A program made the translations under genes and the position numbers. Of a stretch of DNA of 64,000 bases, positions 10,898 through 63,262 are shown in pieces. The DNA is from an uncultured Methanomicrobiales archaeon (GTDB lineage Archaea > Halobacteriota > Methanomicrobia > Methanomicrobiales > Methanospirillaceae). Location of the stretch: assembly GCA_903832665.1 (NCBI GenBank), contig CAILCG010000018.1, positions 62,001 to 126,000 on the forward strand, written 5' to 3'. The notes below the pieces were generated by a model. The model was given only the letters and a program-made list of their open reading frames with translations. It did not search any database and was not told where the DNA came from. Numbering within the stretch: the stretch's first letter is position 1; each line of letters starts with the position of its first letter.

Positions 10898-11239
10898 AAT
10901 GAAAAGAGGGGAGGGTCCCCTCATTTGCTCAGAGGTGACCCCCTCATCCAAAAAAAGAGGAGAGGGTGCCTACCTCCCCTTCATTTGAAAATATTTTGAG
11001 CCGACCCTCCCCTCTTCGGTAAAGAGGGGACCCTACCCCCCCATTTTCTCCACAAATATAACCATGGTTTCGCATGGAATAACGCCGGAGAGCATTTTTT
11101 CGGTTGATCTGCTAGAGAGGGGAGGTGCCTGACCACCCCTTCTCCTAAAAATATTTTGACCCCTACCCTCCCCTCCCAGCATAAAGGGGGACCCTGCCCC
11201 CTATCCTGCGCAAGACAGGGTCCTACTTCCTCCAGTTGC
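10898..11239. repeat. G-rich/C-rich hairpin repeat array (intergenic)
   Basis: The 557-base gap between rpl15e and the RelE toxin gene holds no credible gene. From about 10898 it is a patchwork of short alternating G-rich and C-rich blocks that can pair locally, for example CCCCTCTT...AAAGAGGGG around 11009-11029, separated by A/T-rich spacers including two copies of aaaatattttgA. The last block (about 11183-11239, with GGGGGACC, CCTGCGCAAGACAGG) is clearly related to one at about 63011-63060. It looks like a degenerate interspersed repeat rather than a CRISPR, because there are no equal spacers. Confidence 0.6.
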
Positions 11240-11750: not shown

Positions 11751-12039
11751 GGTCATATTCTCCTTATTGGTCTGAATGTACCTTTTGTCCATTTCAGGCA
11801 ATTAACCTGTGCTTCACGCCATGATTCGGTCACTCAGTCAATTGGAACAAATATTTTGGCAGCAGGCATGATGGAAGCGGGTGCTGGTCCGGGAGAATTA
11901 AAAAAAAGATAACAAGCACCTGAACGCCGCGGGGGCGCCCCTTCGAGTGCGATGGTCACAATCATTAGCGGGGCATGGCTGTATCAGCCCCCATCCAGAA
12001 TACCGGGAAAATAATCTGATGAAAAAAAAGAAGCAGATC

Positions 12040-16143: not shown

Positions 16144-16865
16144 TCGAGCCGGGCGATCGTGTTCTGCTCGCAGGCGAGGGCAGGGAATTCTGGGTCAAGG
16201 CAGGGCCGGGGAAACTCGGCACCGACAAGGGCCAGATCGAGCTCGAGTCCATGGTCGGGAAATCCGGTGGCGATATCATCACCACCCACAGCGGTGCGGA
16301 GTTTACGATCCGCATACCGCGTCCCACAGATTTTTTTACGTACGGCAAGCGGTCAGGCGCACCGATGCTCCCGAAGGATATCGGGCTCGTCATTGCGTAC
16401 ACCGGTATGAACCATAACGATGACGTGCTCGATGCCGGTACCGGCAGCGGGATTGCTGCGATCTTCTTTGGAGGCGTAGCAAAGACCGTCAGGACCTATG
16501 AGGTCCGCCCGGAATTCTCCACGCTCGCGATGAAGAACATCACGGAGTCAAAACTCACCAATGTCGAAGCGGTGGCCGCTGACTTCCTTGCTGCGGAAGG
16601 GAGTTATGATGTGGTGCATCTCGATCTCCAGATCCAGCCCGAGCATGTGAGACATGCATTTACATTGCTACGCTCTGGCGGGTATCTCGCGTGCTACACG
16701 CCGTTCATAGAACAAATGTCAATTGTGGTCGATGAGGCTACTCCGCTCTTCCGCGAAGTGCATACCCATGAACTGATCGAACGGGAGATGACCCGGTCCA
16801 AGAGAGGGACCCGACCGTCTACTTCGGTGAGTCACTCGGGGTATGTGACGATTGCGAGGAAATAA
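16140..16865 (+). CDS. trmI: tRNA (adenine-N1) methyltransferase, TrmI family
   Basis: Makes m1A in tRNA (positions 57/58 in archaea) using S-adenosylmethionine. The 241-residue protein has an N-terminal beta domain and then a Rossmann fold with the SAM motif LDAGTGSGIAAIFFGG (~99-114), the acidic end of strand 2 (YEVRPE) and a YDVVHLDLQ motif. The C-terminus has the conserved ELIEREM...RP.TSVSHSGY signature. A second copy of the last 99 bases lies downstream at 17635-17733, beyond the MazEF module, with 12 mostly silent differences, indicating that the 3' end was replaced or duplicated by an insertion. Confidence 0.94.
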   Translation: MIEPGDRVLLAGEGREFWVKAGPGKLGTDKGQIELESMVGKSGGDIITTHSGAEFTIRIPRPTDFFTYGKRSGAPMLPKDIGLVIAYTGMNHNDDVLDAGTGSGIAAIFFGGVAKTVRTYEVRPEFSTLAMKNITESKLTNVEAVAADFLAAEGSYDVVHLDLQIQPEHVRHAFTLLRSGGYLACYTPFIEQMSIVVDEATPLFREVHTHELIEREMTRSKRGTRPSTSVSHSGYVTIARK

Positions 16866-16942
16866 TTTTTTTTCAGGAAAGATTGTACGTGCCGGGCAGG
16901 CCCCGTCACGGGAAATATTCTTTAGGAATCTCCGGAGAAATT

Positions 16943-17501: not shown

Positions 17502-17634
17502 GTGCTCTCACAACTTATAATGTAAGATTCTTAGATTATGAGTGTTGCGGAAGAGATCGTATCGGGAATTAATTATACACCAGAAACAGCTTCAGGTTCT
17601 GCATTCTGGTGTACCAGCATCGGATGAGCAGCTC

Positions 17635-17733
17635 CATGAGCTGATCGAGCGGGAGATGACCCGGTCCAAGCGGGGGACCCGGCCGTTTACTTCGGTCAGT
17701 CACTCGGGATATGTGGTGCTTGCGAGGAAATGA
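17635..17733 (+). pseudogene. Detached second 3' end of trmI (32 codons plus stop)
   Basis: The 99 bases encode HELIEREMTRSKRGTRP and SVSHSGY, then ARK and a stop, matching the last 33 codons of trmI at 16767-16865. The copies differ at 12 positions, mostly at third codon positions; both therefore evolved under selection for protein sequence before one lost its upstream part. The sequence upstream (17542-17634) is open but has no other resemblance to trmI. The best explanation is a relic of the original gene end left behind when an element carrying its own 3' end inserted, or a recombination scar. Confidence 0.75.
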
Positions 17734-17922
17734 TCCTCTTTTTTTTAAAGAAAGTCAAAGTAATGGCCTCTAAACTTTGTTTTTTCGTGTCAACGTCTGA
17801 AAAGCACGCAAAGAGATTTTCTTTTCATTTAAATAAAGTATAATAAAACTTAGTTATTATACAAAAATTACAATAACCTGAAATATTTTTAATGTTTTAT
17901 CATTATAAGGTGTGAAATTTGA

Positions 17923-20324: not shown

Positions 20325-20880
20325 TTTCTCGAATTTTTTTTTTCATCAGAGTCTGCTTGAAATTTTTCAATCACGTACGGAGGGTGTTAGTAAACATGCC
20401 AACAGTTGGATAATTATCCAACTGTTGGATAATTATCTAACAACAAATCTTTTTCTCCGGCGTGAGGGTCCGGGCTCGCACAGCAAGGTCTGGTTGAAAA
20501 ATTTCAGGCAGGAGGCAAGGGGTCGATTGAAAAAAAATTTCCGGAGATCGATGGGAAATTTTTTTCGCTCAGGCAGATCCGGAATTTTTTGAAAAAAGGT
20601 TGGCCGGATTTGATCTAAAATGGGTTCATGATCGTACTCATTGGGTTGTTCGAGCTTGGCAGTACTAAGGTGGCTTCCCGCATCAGACCTCACCTAGTCA
20701 CTGTGGGGAAATGAAAGTTCAACAGATTTTGCATTAAAATCGCCTCAGGCGCGCTCCGTCAGGGGCAGCGGTATTCATCGCATTTTGCTGGAATGGAGGA
20801 TTAACCCAACACAGAATTTGCAGGATTAAAATCGATGAAACCAAAAGAAGGAATACCGGAAGATACCGGTAGTAATCCGG
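20325..20880. other. Gene-free interval with palindrome and T/A-rich low-complexity DNA
   Basis: No credible gene. It begins with a T-run downstream of the CARF-like gene (ttttttttt around 20335), a likely terminator, then holds the palindrome cluster at 20399-20441. From 20450 to 20600 there are several copies of gaaaaattt(c)-type runs mixed with GC-rich blocks, vaguely like the composition of the 1.02-kb element elsewhere in the window but without an alignable match seen by eye. Confidence 0.5.
20399..20441. promoter_or_regulatory. Perfect 30-bp palindrome plus overlapping second palindrome
   Basis: Positions 20399-20428 read identically on both strands; the core is TTGGATAATTATCCAA flanked by CCAACAG and CTGTTGG. 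A second copy of GTTGGATAATTATC starts 19 bases later and forms a near-palindrome ending in TAAC at 20441 with one mismatch. Two adjacent dyads with 19-bp spacing look like a tandem operator for a dimeric regulator. A hairpin in RNA is also possible, but no T-run follows directly, so a terminator is less likely. Confidence 0.6.
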
Positions 20881-33677: not shown

Positions 33678-33694
33678 AAGACCGGATATTTAAT

Positions 33695-34724
33695 AAAAAA
33701 ACGCACGAAGTCAAAGACTTCGCACCCAAGCAATGAAAATTTTGCAACCGGAAAAAGAATTCCGGTTTTGTATTTTATCATCAGTGGTTTTTAAAAAATT
33801 TCATGGCAAATCCCGGCAGAAAAACTTCCTTTCCTCACCGGTTATGATTGAATACTGCGGGAAAATCCCCGGCTCATAACCAATCGTTCAGAAAAATTTC
33901 CGGAAACTGTGGACAAAGAATCCGTTATAAAAAAAATCTGAAAAATTTTTTCCGGCCGGTTCATGCGATCTTCTGTCAGGAATACAGCCGTTTCCCCTCG
34001 CGGTCGATCCCGACCAAGCGAGTCCGTTGAGGTGTCGTCTCAACTCCGGCAGGGTGGGCTTGCTGGGGATAGGATCTTGTGATGAGGGCGGATGGTTCCA
34101 TTCCCATGGTTGCGATGAACGGCCGCCGTCCCGGAAGGCGCCTCCAGGCGGATCAGATTTCCGGAAAATCTGCCGGTTGAAATCGATCCGTCACAGGTCC
34201 TGATCCAGGACTCCTGAATCCTGCCTATGGCAGTGACCCAAACGATCTAAACCTCACCACCCTCCCTTTTCGGCCCTCATAACGCTGTTGTTAGTTGCCT
34301 CTCCACTTCCCACCGGAGAACGCCCCTTAATTCCGGCCTTAATTCCGCGTTTTTCCGCATAGTTGCCTCCCGTATTGGAAAAATCGGGTAAACGGAGCCC
34401 CCTGCGGGCCCGGATTACTCCCCTGCAAAAAGCGGTAACTCTCCGACGGAGCGGCATTCTTCAGGGAGACATTGTGAGGGTTACCTCCTTGACCCCTTCG
34501 AGAGACTCTTACTTCCACCCATCCCCAGTGTAATCGTAGTTTTTTTTAGTCACTGGCGGTGGAAAAAGGAGTGTAAAAAATTTTAAGCACAAAAGAGCGA
34601 TCAACGGCTTCATTAAAATTTCCTACCCGGGCAAAATTAATTACGGAAGATTATTAAAAAAAATCCCGTACGGCCCGTAACAAAATTTTTCGAAACGGTA
34701 AAAAATTTCCGTACGAATCCCGAG
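33695..34724. repeat. Copy 1 of a ~1.02-kb non-coding repeated element
   Basis: The 1.2-kb gap between trm1 and a histidine kinase gene is filled by this unit. Over its whole length it aligns with the reverse complement of 61722-62740, roughly 80 percent identical by eye, with nearly equal length (1030 and 1019 bases). No frame is open through both copies; the longest one here (67 codons, 34254-34457, minus) is stopped early in copy 2. Shared features are A/T-rich ends, a hairpin with 10 paired bases around GATCCC (33997-34022), the tandem CCTTAATTCCGG block and the gene-like but frame-shifted middle. It may be a structured RNA locus or a non-autonomous mobile element. Confidence 0.8.
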
Positions 34725-34841
34725 AAAAAAAACGCAGGAGTCAAAGACTTCGCACCCAAGCAATGAAAATTTTGCAACCGGAAAAAGAATTCCGGTTTTG
34801 TATTTTACCATCAGTAATTTTTAAAAATTTTCATGACAAAT
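34725..34841. repeat. Truncated tandem second unit (117-bp direct repeat of the element's start)
   Basis: Positions 34725-34841 repeat 33695-33811 exactly 1030 bases later, with an uninterrupted identical run of 67 bases beginning at tcaaagacttcgcaccc. It is therefore the beginning of a second unit arranged head to tail and cut off after 117 bases, just before the histidine kinase stop codon region. Confidence 0.85.
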
Positions 34842-34887
34842 ACAAAAAAATGTTTTTCATGTTGGGGTAGGAATCCCAAATTCACCG

Positions 34888-61721: not shown

Positions 61722-62740
61722 GCTTCGGGATATGTTGGGGAATTTATTGCCCTTTTGAAAAATTTGTTCCGGGCCGTACAGGATTTTTTAATCACCCGAA
61801 TTAATTTTACCCTGGGGGGAATTTTAAAATGAAACAATTGATCGCTCCCCGGGCCTGAATTTTTTACACTCCCGTTTCCACCACCAGTCACTAAAAAACT
61901 ACGATTATACCGGGGATGGGTGAAGTAAGAGTCTCTTGAAGGGGTCAAGGGGTCACCCTCATACTGTCACCCCGAAGAATGCCTCTCCGTCGGAGAGTTC
62001 CCGCTTTTTGCAGGGGGAGCAATCCGGGCCCGCTGGGGGCTCCGTTTACCCGTTTTTTCCAATCCGGGAGGCAACTAAGCGGAAAAACACGGAATTAAGG
62101 CCGGAATTAAGGGGCGTTCTCCGGCGGGAAATGGAGAGGCAACTAACAACAACGTTGTGAGGGCCGAAAAGGGAGGGAGGTGAGGTTTAGATCGTTGGGG
62201 TCACTTCAGGAGCCAGGATTCAGGAGTCCAGGATCAGGACCTGTGACGGATAGTCTTCATCCGGCAGATTTTCCGGAAATCTTATCCGCCGAGGGACGCC
62301 TTCCGGGGCGACAGTCGTTCAATGCAATCATGAGAATGGAACCATCCGCCCTCATCACAAGATTCTATCCATAACAAGCCCACTCTGCCGGTGTCGAGAC
62401 GACACCTCACCAGGGCTCGCCGGGTCGGGATCGACCGCGAGGGGAAAACGGCAGTACTCCGGATGGACGATCGCGTGAACACGCCGGGAAAATTTTTCAG
62501 ATTTTTTATAACGAATTTTTGTCCACGGTTTCCGGAAATTTTTCTGAACGATTGTTTCTGAGCCGGGGATCTTCGGCATTATTCAATCATAACCGGCCAG
62601 GGAAGGAAGTTTTTCTGCCGGGATTTGTCATGAAAATTTTTGAAGACCACTTACGATAAAATACAAAACCGTAATTCTTTTTCCGGTTGCAAAATTTTCA
62701 TTGCCCGGGTGGGAATTCTTTGACTTCATGCGGGTTTTTT
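61722..62740. repeat. Copy 2 (inverted) of the ~1.02-kb non-coding element
   Basis: Read on the minus strand this matches copy 1 (33695-34724) from end to end, with clear landmarks such as the run around ggggatgggtgaagtaagag, the CTCCGTCGGAGAG dyad (61983-61997), the hairpin GGTGTCG-AGA-CGACACC (62390-62406) and the loop arm around GGGTCGGGATCGACC (62416-62441). No frame is open across it in the same phase as copy 1. Copy 2 is not followed by a second truncated unit as copy 1 is. The gap from the hydrolase stop to 61721 is T-rich sequence without a gene. Confidence 0.8.
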
Positions 62741-62794
62741 AAGATTAAAACCGCACGAAAATTTTCCGTAATAGTCTGGCAGAAAAATTTCCTG

Positions 62795-63262
62795 AACCAA
62801 GCCTCCCCCCGGTCCTGTTTGAAGCCCGGGGACTGGCCGTGCTTCGCGTGATGGGACAGCCGGGACCCGGGGGTGGAGACCAGTCCTGGTAAGGATGGGG
62901 TAATTCCCCCTTCCCCACTATTCCGGATGAGAGGGGGTATCCGGCCCTGACCACCCCCACTCCAAAGTACGAGAGGGGGTAGGGTACCCGCCTACCCCCA
63001 CTCAAAAAAGTGAGAGGGGGACCTCCTGCTCCCCTGTCCCGCAAAAGACAGGGTACCTCCCCCCCCCCTTTGGAGGCAGGTACGGAAGCACGGCATCGCA
63101 TGGAGTCACATCGGAAGAGGGATTTTGCGTACGGTAAAATGGAGGGGGGTGGGGGCCTGTCCAGGCAAAGAGGGGCACCACCCCCTCCCCCTCTCCAAAA
63201 TATGAGTGAGGGATACAGGCCCATCCTACCCCCCGAGATCAAAGTGGGAGGGGTAGGTTCAA
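62795..63262. repeat. G-rich/C-rich repeat array, related to 10898-11239
   Basis: The interval holds blocks of runs of G and C (gagggggtagggtaccc, cctacccccactc, gtgagagggggacctc) that can fold into short hairpins, for example CCCTGTC-CCGCAAAA-GACAGGG at 63032-63053. The segment around 63011-63060 corresponds to that at 11183-11239 (shared words GGGGGACC, GACAGGGT, acttcctcc/acctcccc). No equal spacers are present, so it is not a CRISPR array. It is directly next to copy 2 of the 1.02-kb element, but copy 1 has no such neighbour. Confidence 0.6.

Follow-up and report, generated by a model that had tools for sequence, protein, structure and literature searches.

The repeated element of about 1 kb that occurs twice in the window (the whole 64,000-nucleotide stretch of DNA analysed here) is probably a gene-deleted, non-autonomous copy of a mobile repeat unit that is specific to Methanoregula and had not been described before. 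Its membership, as a gene-deleted form, in a family built of a conserved non-coding block, M4r, and a small gene with a predicted Hjc-type fold is well supported, and so is the conclusion that copy 1 is an insertion. Movement of the element by a dedicated mechanism is likely, and chance duplication through host recombination is the main rival to this reading. The element is a mosaic and not one RNA.

Results

Copies of the element

A BLAST search of the organism's own genome (2.88 Mb in 28 contigs) confirmed that the inverted pair of ~1-kb repeats seen in the initial annotation is real. Copy 1 (33695-34724) is the reverse complement of copy 2 (61722-62739), with 86% identity over query positions 1-1029 (E = 0), or 85.96% across the 1033 columns of their alignment. 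The end-to-end match had therefore been described correctly, whereas the identity of about 80% judged by eye was an underestimate. Two further near-full copies were located in the same genome by BLAST and nhmmer, namely copy 3 on contig C20 (81%) and copy 4 on contig C3 (79%), together with many shorter pieces of the element.

In an alignment of the four near-full copies, copy 4 carries an insertion of about 240 nt, frame-breaking single-base indels separate the copies from one another, and a 13-nt hairpin is lost in copy 3. No frame of at least 80 aa lies inside copy 1. Hence, the earlier observation that the copies share no long reading frame was right. A coding frame spanning the whole element was considered and rejected, as only a 13-codon tail is recognisable.

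The search of related genomes with the core, which had been proposed as a check, did return sub-blocks, each with its own distribution, but no copy of the whole element. The sharp ends that had been attributed to the repeat hold only in part, since they coincide in part with the ends of a different repeat, M1, and the inserted block extends from about 33687 to 34842. The searches gave no match of plasmid or viral origin, and such an origin was rejected on that ground. The Rfam covariance models have no match at gathering score in the window, and the sole match at related loci is a DUF3800-X RNA (RF02984; L054:14586-14659) that adjoins another gene, of DUF3800 type, in a locus rich in M4r-gene units. 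That the element matches no described family holds for Pfam, NCBIfam, PHROGs, Rfam and the open literature searched, in which papers on Methanoregula repeats, archaeal CALINs and uvrA contain nothing about this element.

Mosaic composition

Read on the minus strand, copy 1 consists of an AT-rich leader, M4r, the palindromic repeat M3, and the 13 last codons of a gene followed by its 3' flank, with M1 at both ends (Table 1). Its two M1 copies are 91% alike. The M1-core-M1 layout is found in copies 1 and 4; with one M1 in copy 2 and no M1 in copy 3, a terminal M1 is dispensable. Elsewhere in the genome, M1 occurs as four tandem copies with a fifth nearby on contig C17, and as pairs on C3 and C7.

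Table 1. Coordinates of the element, its parts and the related array loci. Positions are those of the window except in the last row.
Feature	Position	Strand	Basis or remark
Copy 1 as inserted (M1 - core - M1)	33687..34842	- (relic gene sense)	own-genome BLAST, nhmmer; empty sites in relatives
Copy 2, one M1 only	61722..62739	+	own-genome BLAST, nhmmer
M1a, 115-nt direct terminal repeat, dispersed in own genome	33695..33809	+	BLAST
M1b, second direct M1 copy, other end of copy 1	34726..34839	+	
M1 of copy 2	62625..62739	-	
M3, REP-like palindromic repeat (GGCCGCCGCCCCGGAGGGCGCCCCGCGGCGG type)	34080..34157	+	further copies in the window and in many genomes of the genus
M3 palindrome of copy 2	62280..62357	-	
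3' end and 3' flank of decayed Hjc-like gene	33887..34030	-	aligns with tails of L085, L086, L083, L007/L073
Last codons LVGIDREGKRLYS-stop of Hjc-like family (M2)	33976..34017	-	translation and alignment, 15 homologous tails
Relic Hjc-like codons of copy 2 (VGIDREGK)	62421..62460	+	
AT-rich leader upstream of M4r, common to own-genome copies	34425..34724	-	
M4r, non-coding block of ~200 nt, conserved, with a pair of 9-bp direct repeats	34240..34424	-	model R1, 115.6 bits, E 4e-34; alignment A1
M4r of copy 2	62004..62197	+	116.2 bits, E 3e-34
T2 array loci	L224 (own genome C24:62001-82000); also L216, L226, L230-L245		

The translated tail of copy 1 aligns with LVEIDREGKR(I/L).SGQ of the intact genes. 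A gene-family residue, one of three options raised in the initial annotation, is thus borne out by the decayed tail of a multi-copy gene. The GATCCC hairpin that had been noted in both copies is indeed kept, but it owes this to its position within the 13 relic codons and not to RNA structure. Read on its minus strand, copy 1 is collinear with M4r-gene units found elsewhere, with M4r first and the gene tail and 3' flank behind it; in comparison with those units, it lacks about 420 nt, among them the greater part of the gene, and M3 lies in the gap.

Other repeats were observed in the window. Solo M3 palindromes lie on the minus strand at 11925-11995 and 20734-20806. GC-rich, partly repeated runs of the type CCCTCCCCTC..GAGGGGACCC are present at 11001-11201 and about 62745-63260, and those beside copy 2 occupy a non-coding stretch of about 500 nt.

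Insertion at sites that are empty in relatives

Copy 1 is absent from the orthologous site in three close relatives (G007, G021 and G004), where the tRNA methyltransferase and histidine-kinase genes that flank it are joined by about 60-110 nt; in G007, the flanking tRNA methyltransferase is 91% identical. Given these empty sites, copy 1 is an insertion, and a non-autonomous mobile element, another of the options raised, was also a correct description. The empty sites together with the decayed tail of a multi-copy gene make both options right, and the two are the same thing. The junctions of the empty sites are too diverged for any target-site duplication to be read.

A second M4r element in the same genome, at C24:149 kb, is an insertion of about 1.07 kb relative to G021. 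Approximately 750 nt of it recur (81-82%) in elements that occupy other loci in G014 and G011, and it is bounded by direct copies of another repeat, T2, in a T2-M4r-T2 arrangement that parallels the M1-core-M1 of copy 1. No terminal inverted repeats were found, the ends of copies 1 and 4 being direct M1 repeats, and no transposase-type enzyme is encoded by the element.

A separate pair of 119-nt direct repeats (83%) in the window, at 16755-16873 and 17623-17741, in which the 3' end of a methyltransferase-like ORF is duplicated, encloses an insert of about 750 nt, of which 583 nt match (82%) the interval between two M4r copies in G007.

M4r and its association with a gene

A sequence-only model detected M4r in 34 of the 39 genomes of the genus and, among the other genomes searched, only in two of genus g11; as many as 22 copies are listed for a single genome. 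An Hjc-fold gene lies less than 1 kb from 31 of 125 M4r copies, in all cases on the same strand (24 M4r downstream and seven upstream of the gene), whereas about one such M4r would be expected by chance from an estimated ~10 genes per 2.5-Mb genome. The remaining 94 copies have no such gene within 1 kb, and the Hjc-fold gene may therefore be a passenger. The gene often has M4r on either side. Complete M4r-gene-M4r units, with direct repeats about 1.1 kb apart, are present in G021, G011 and G001, and neighbouring M4r copies less than 10 kb apart share the same orientation in 31 cases and are opposed in one. The position of M4r downstream of the gene had suggested a permuted or circular element, an idea that was dropped because the M4r-gene-M4r units have the same order as the window element.

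Each M4r contains two 9-bp GAGGYMAYA repeats, 68 positions apart, which match each other better within a copy than across copies (623 identities, against a mean of 539 and a maximum of 568 in 5000 shuffles). This pattern fits two sites that would be read by one putative binding partner, and common descent of both repeats within lineages could have contributed to their match.

According to the main rival, there is no dedicated mobility and a decayed tandem gene-M4r segment was spread by chance segmental duplication and by host homologous recombination at M1, M3 and M4r. Such a history would be in keeping with a mosaic of several independently dispersed repeats, with the frequency of decayed genes and tandem M4r copies, and with the absence of a transposase from the element. 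However, it accounts poorly for a unit length that is kept in four copies, for clean insertions at otherwise conserved gene borders, and for the strict co-orientation of M4r both with the gene and with other M4r copies. We consider it unlikely, and favour a gene-deleted copy of a mobile unit.

The partner gene and its predicted fold

Intact homologues of the relic tail in other Methanoregula encode proteins of approximately 120-140 aa with a core of about 120 aa. Of 36 genus genomes searched, 34 carry the family, with 1-11 copies apiece; it is missing from all 24 genomes that represent other families in the order. Pfam, NCBIfam and PHROGs contain no family for this protein, and a family-wide sequence search of the PDB gave no convincing match. 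An AlphaFold model built from 36 homologues (pLDDT 84.5, pTM 0.77) has archaeal Hjc proteins as its best fold matches in the PDB (Foldseek probability 1.00, E about 1e-3, TM about 0.5), and the gene product is thus predicted to be Hjc-like in fold (PD-(D/E)XK, Hjc type). Residues D36 (30/36), E86 and E108 are kept. The active-site E-x-K is mostly R-x-(M/R/K), with Arg at position 49 in 30 of the 36 proteins and Lys at position 51 in nine; as the canonical motif is mostly absent, catalytic activity of the protein is doubtful. PF01870, the Hjc family, has no match in the organism's own genome.

Copy 3 of the element sits about 64 nt behind an intact copy of the gene (C20:18622-18990). Decayed copies of the gene are common, as are tandem arrangements of M4r; at L104 (own genome C16:153001-156500), for example, a decayed Hjc-like gene is followed by three M4r blocks in tandem.

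The question of a structured RNA

The third option raised in the initial annotation was a large structured RNA locus, so that the copies would represent one large structured non-coding RNA gene. The length of the element, its block-wise conservation and a short GGGCC hairpin that recurs in M4r would suit such a gene. On the other hand, the 621-nt core folds only slightly better than shuffled sequence (z = -1.3 and -0.7 on the two strands), 27 sampled members of M4r have a mean z of about -0.6 on both strands, and the flanking parts consist of a gene relic and of dispersed repeats. The covarying base pairs that had been proposed as a check did not appear: RNAalifold predicted no pairs in the 46-sequence M4r alignment, and by mutual information the strongest covariation in M4r is identity of the direct repeats, not complementarity. 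A small sub-alignment had looked promising, and the larger alignments gave no support. As M4r folds no better than shuffled sequence, and with no Rfam match, a structured RNA is unsupported, and a multi-copy RNA gene is very improbable. The whole M4r alignment does fold better than its column-shuffled versions, and for this reason M4r may contain a small amount of structure.

T2 arrays beside uvrA

The T2 repeat that bounds the element at C24:149 kb otherwise occurs in the same genome as one chain of 17-18 co-oriented copies around C24:63-86 kb. These repeats are about 95-140 nt long and separate small gene cassettes. Within the genus, 25 of the 39 genomes contain T2, and three further genera of the family have it as well. 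Ten array loci contain 71 T2 sites, in a single orientation at every locus, and 65 intervals that hold small genes. The cassettes measure 0.5-1.4 kb and mostly carry a single gene or a toxin-antitoxin pair; interval genes checked with Pfam include ParE-like, MqsA-like, nucleotidyltransferase, PIN, HicA, GNAT, DJ-1/PfpI and 2'-5' RNA ligase genes, and a hydrolase is also among the array cassettes. Between genomes, 82 interval pairs are shared, 81 of them in the same orientation relative to T2, and their orders differ. The array adjoins uvrA, a gene named from its sequence, in G036, G020, G024 and G005. The T2 arrays are integron-like in layout.

No IntI is encoded in the organism's own genome: its three tyrosine recombinases fall far below the cut-off of TIGR02249, the nearest being the host XerA. 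XerA was rejected as an array integrase, as it adjoins the array only in this genome among the ten loci. The R'/R'' boxes of attC sites were found in none of 49 T2 segments, and the T2 hairpin is no better than in shuffled sequences; T2 was consequently rejected as a standard attC site. M1 was likewise rejected as an array site of the T2 kind, being dispersed and forming only some co-oriented pairs.

Intervals of the T2 arrays recurrently consist of M4r, either by itself or together with the gene. Several arrays lack the gene-M4r unit, so that it is only a candidate for a role as array machinery. Since no T2 occurs in the window, the window element is tied to the cassette array by shared parts, M4r and the gene, and not by T2.

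From these relationships, the window element might be read as an escaped cassette of the T2 arrays, moved by a site-specific recombinase with M1 in the part of T2. The recurrence of M4r and M4r-gene units in the arrays, the insertion of a T2-M4r-T2 element outside the array at C24:149 kb, and the M1-core-M1 layout of copies 1 and 4 all speak for this reading, yet the window is without T2, M1 does not resemble T2 and is dispersed rather than array-bound, and no recombinase was identified. We judge it distinctly improbable. A broader scheme can be offered tentatively, in which Methanoregulaceae would possess an integrase-less, integron-like platform at a conserved site by uvrA, where co-oriented T2 sites would gather and reshuffle small cassettes. 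The M4r and Hjc-fold unit would be a mobile cassette of this platform, and possibly a part of its recombination machinery by way of an Hjc-type protein that binds junctions, with the window element as a gene-deleted escapee.

Discussion

In the reading that we favour, a gene-deleted copy of a mobile repeat unit, the full unit would comprise M4r, a spacer, the small Hjc-fold gene and a second M4r, all in one orientation. The window copies have lost the gene body and retain its last codons and 3' flank behind one M4r, with M3 in the gap. This block has been amplified to four near-full copies in the genome and enters new intergenic places, copies 1 and 4 lying between two direct copies of M1. The element would move in the form of DNA, through recombination, and not as RNA. 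Spread and loss may be driven by gene-bearing units or by host homologous recombination between direct repeats, in which case M4r x M4r exchange would give a solo M4r and M1 x M1 exchange the M1-core-M1 arrangement. The Hjc-fold protein may bind M4r, possibly via the paired 9-bp repeats.

What had been an anonymous non-coding repeat can now be treated as a mobile unit that is open to testing and whose partner gene is identified. No such element has been described for the methane-producing Methanoregula in the libraries and papers searched, and a partner with a predicted Holliday-junction resolvase fold would be a type of helper new to mobile repeats. The M4r-gene unit also leads to an integron-like array without integrase or attC boxes that is common across an archaeal family. 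If the T2 array does recombine, it would represent a second route to integron-type gene stores.

In predicted fold and in size, the gene product resembles archaeal Hjc (2wiw, 2wcw, 1gef; PF01870). In contrast to Hjc, the present family is multi-copy and genus-restricted, and mostly does not keep the canonical E-x-K. The T2 arrays, for their part, recall integrons and CALINs, including archaeal ones (PMC9668308), in being chains of co-oriented sites whose small exchangeable cassettes are reshuffled between genomes. They differ from these in having no IntI (in the organism's own genome) and no attC boxes, and the window element lies outside such an array.

MITEs and solo-LTR-like elements offer another comparison. 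Whereas the present element has direct-repeat ends (M1 or T2), no terminal inverted repeats that we could see, and neither a reverse transcriptase nor a DDE transposase, it shares with them gene-less copies of about 0.7-1.1 kb, end repeats, clean empty sites and intact relatives that bear a gene. The REP/RAYT systems, or REPtrons (PMC2817692), differ in their components: their gene encodes an HUH Y1 transposase instead of a PD-(D/E)XK-like protein of Hjc fold, and REP is a palindrome of 20-40 nt, in contrast to the ~200-nt, co-oriented M4r with its direct repeats. Despite these differences, they are likewise organised around a small gene flanked by a non-coding repeat, with scattered gene-less copies and families that are limited to a genus.
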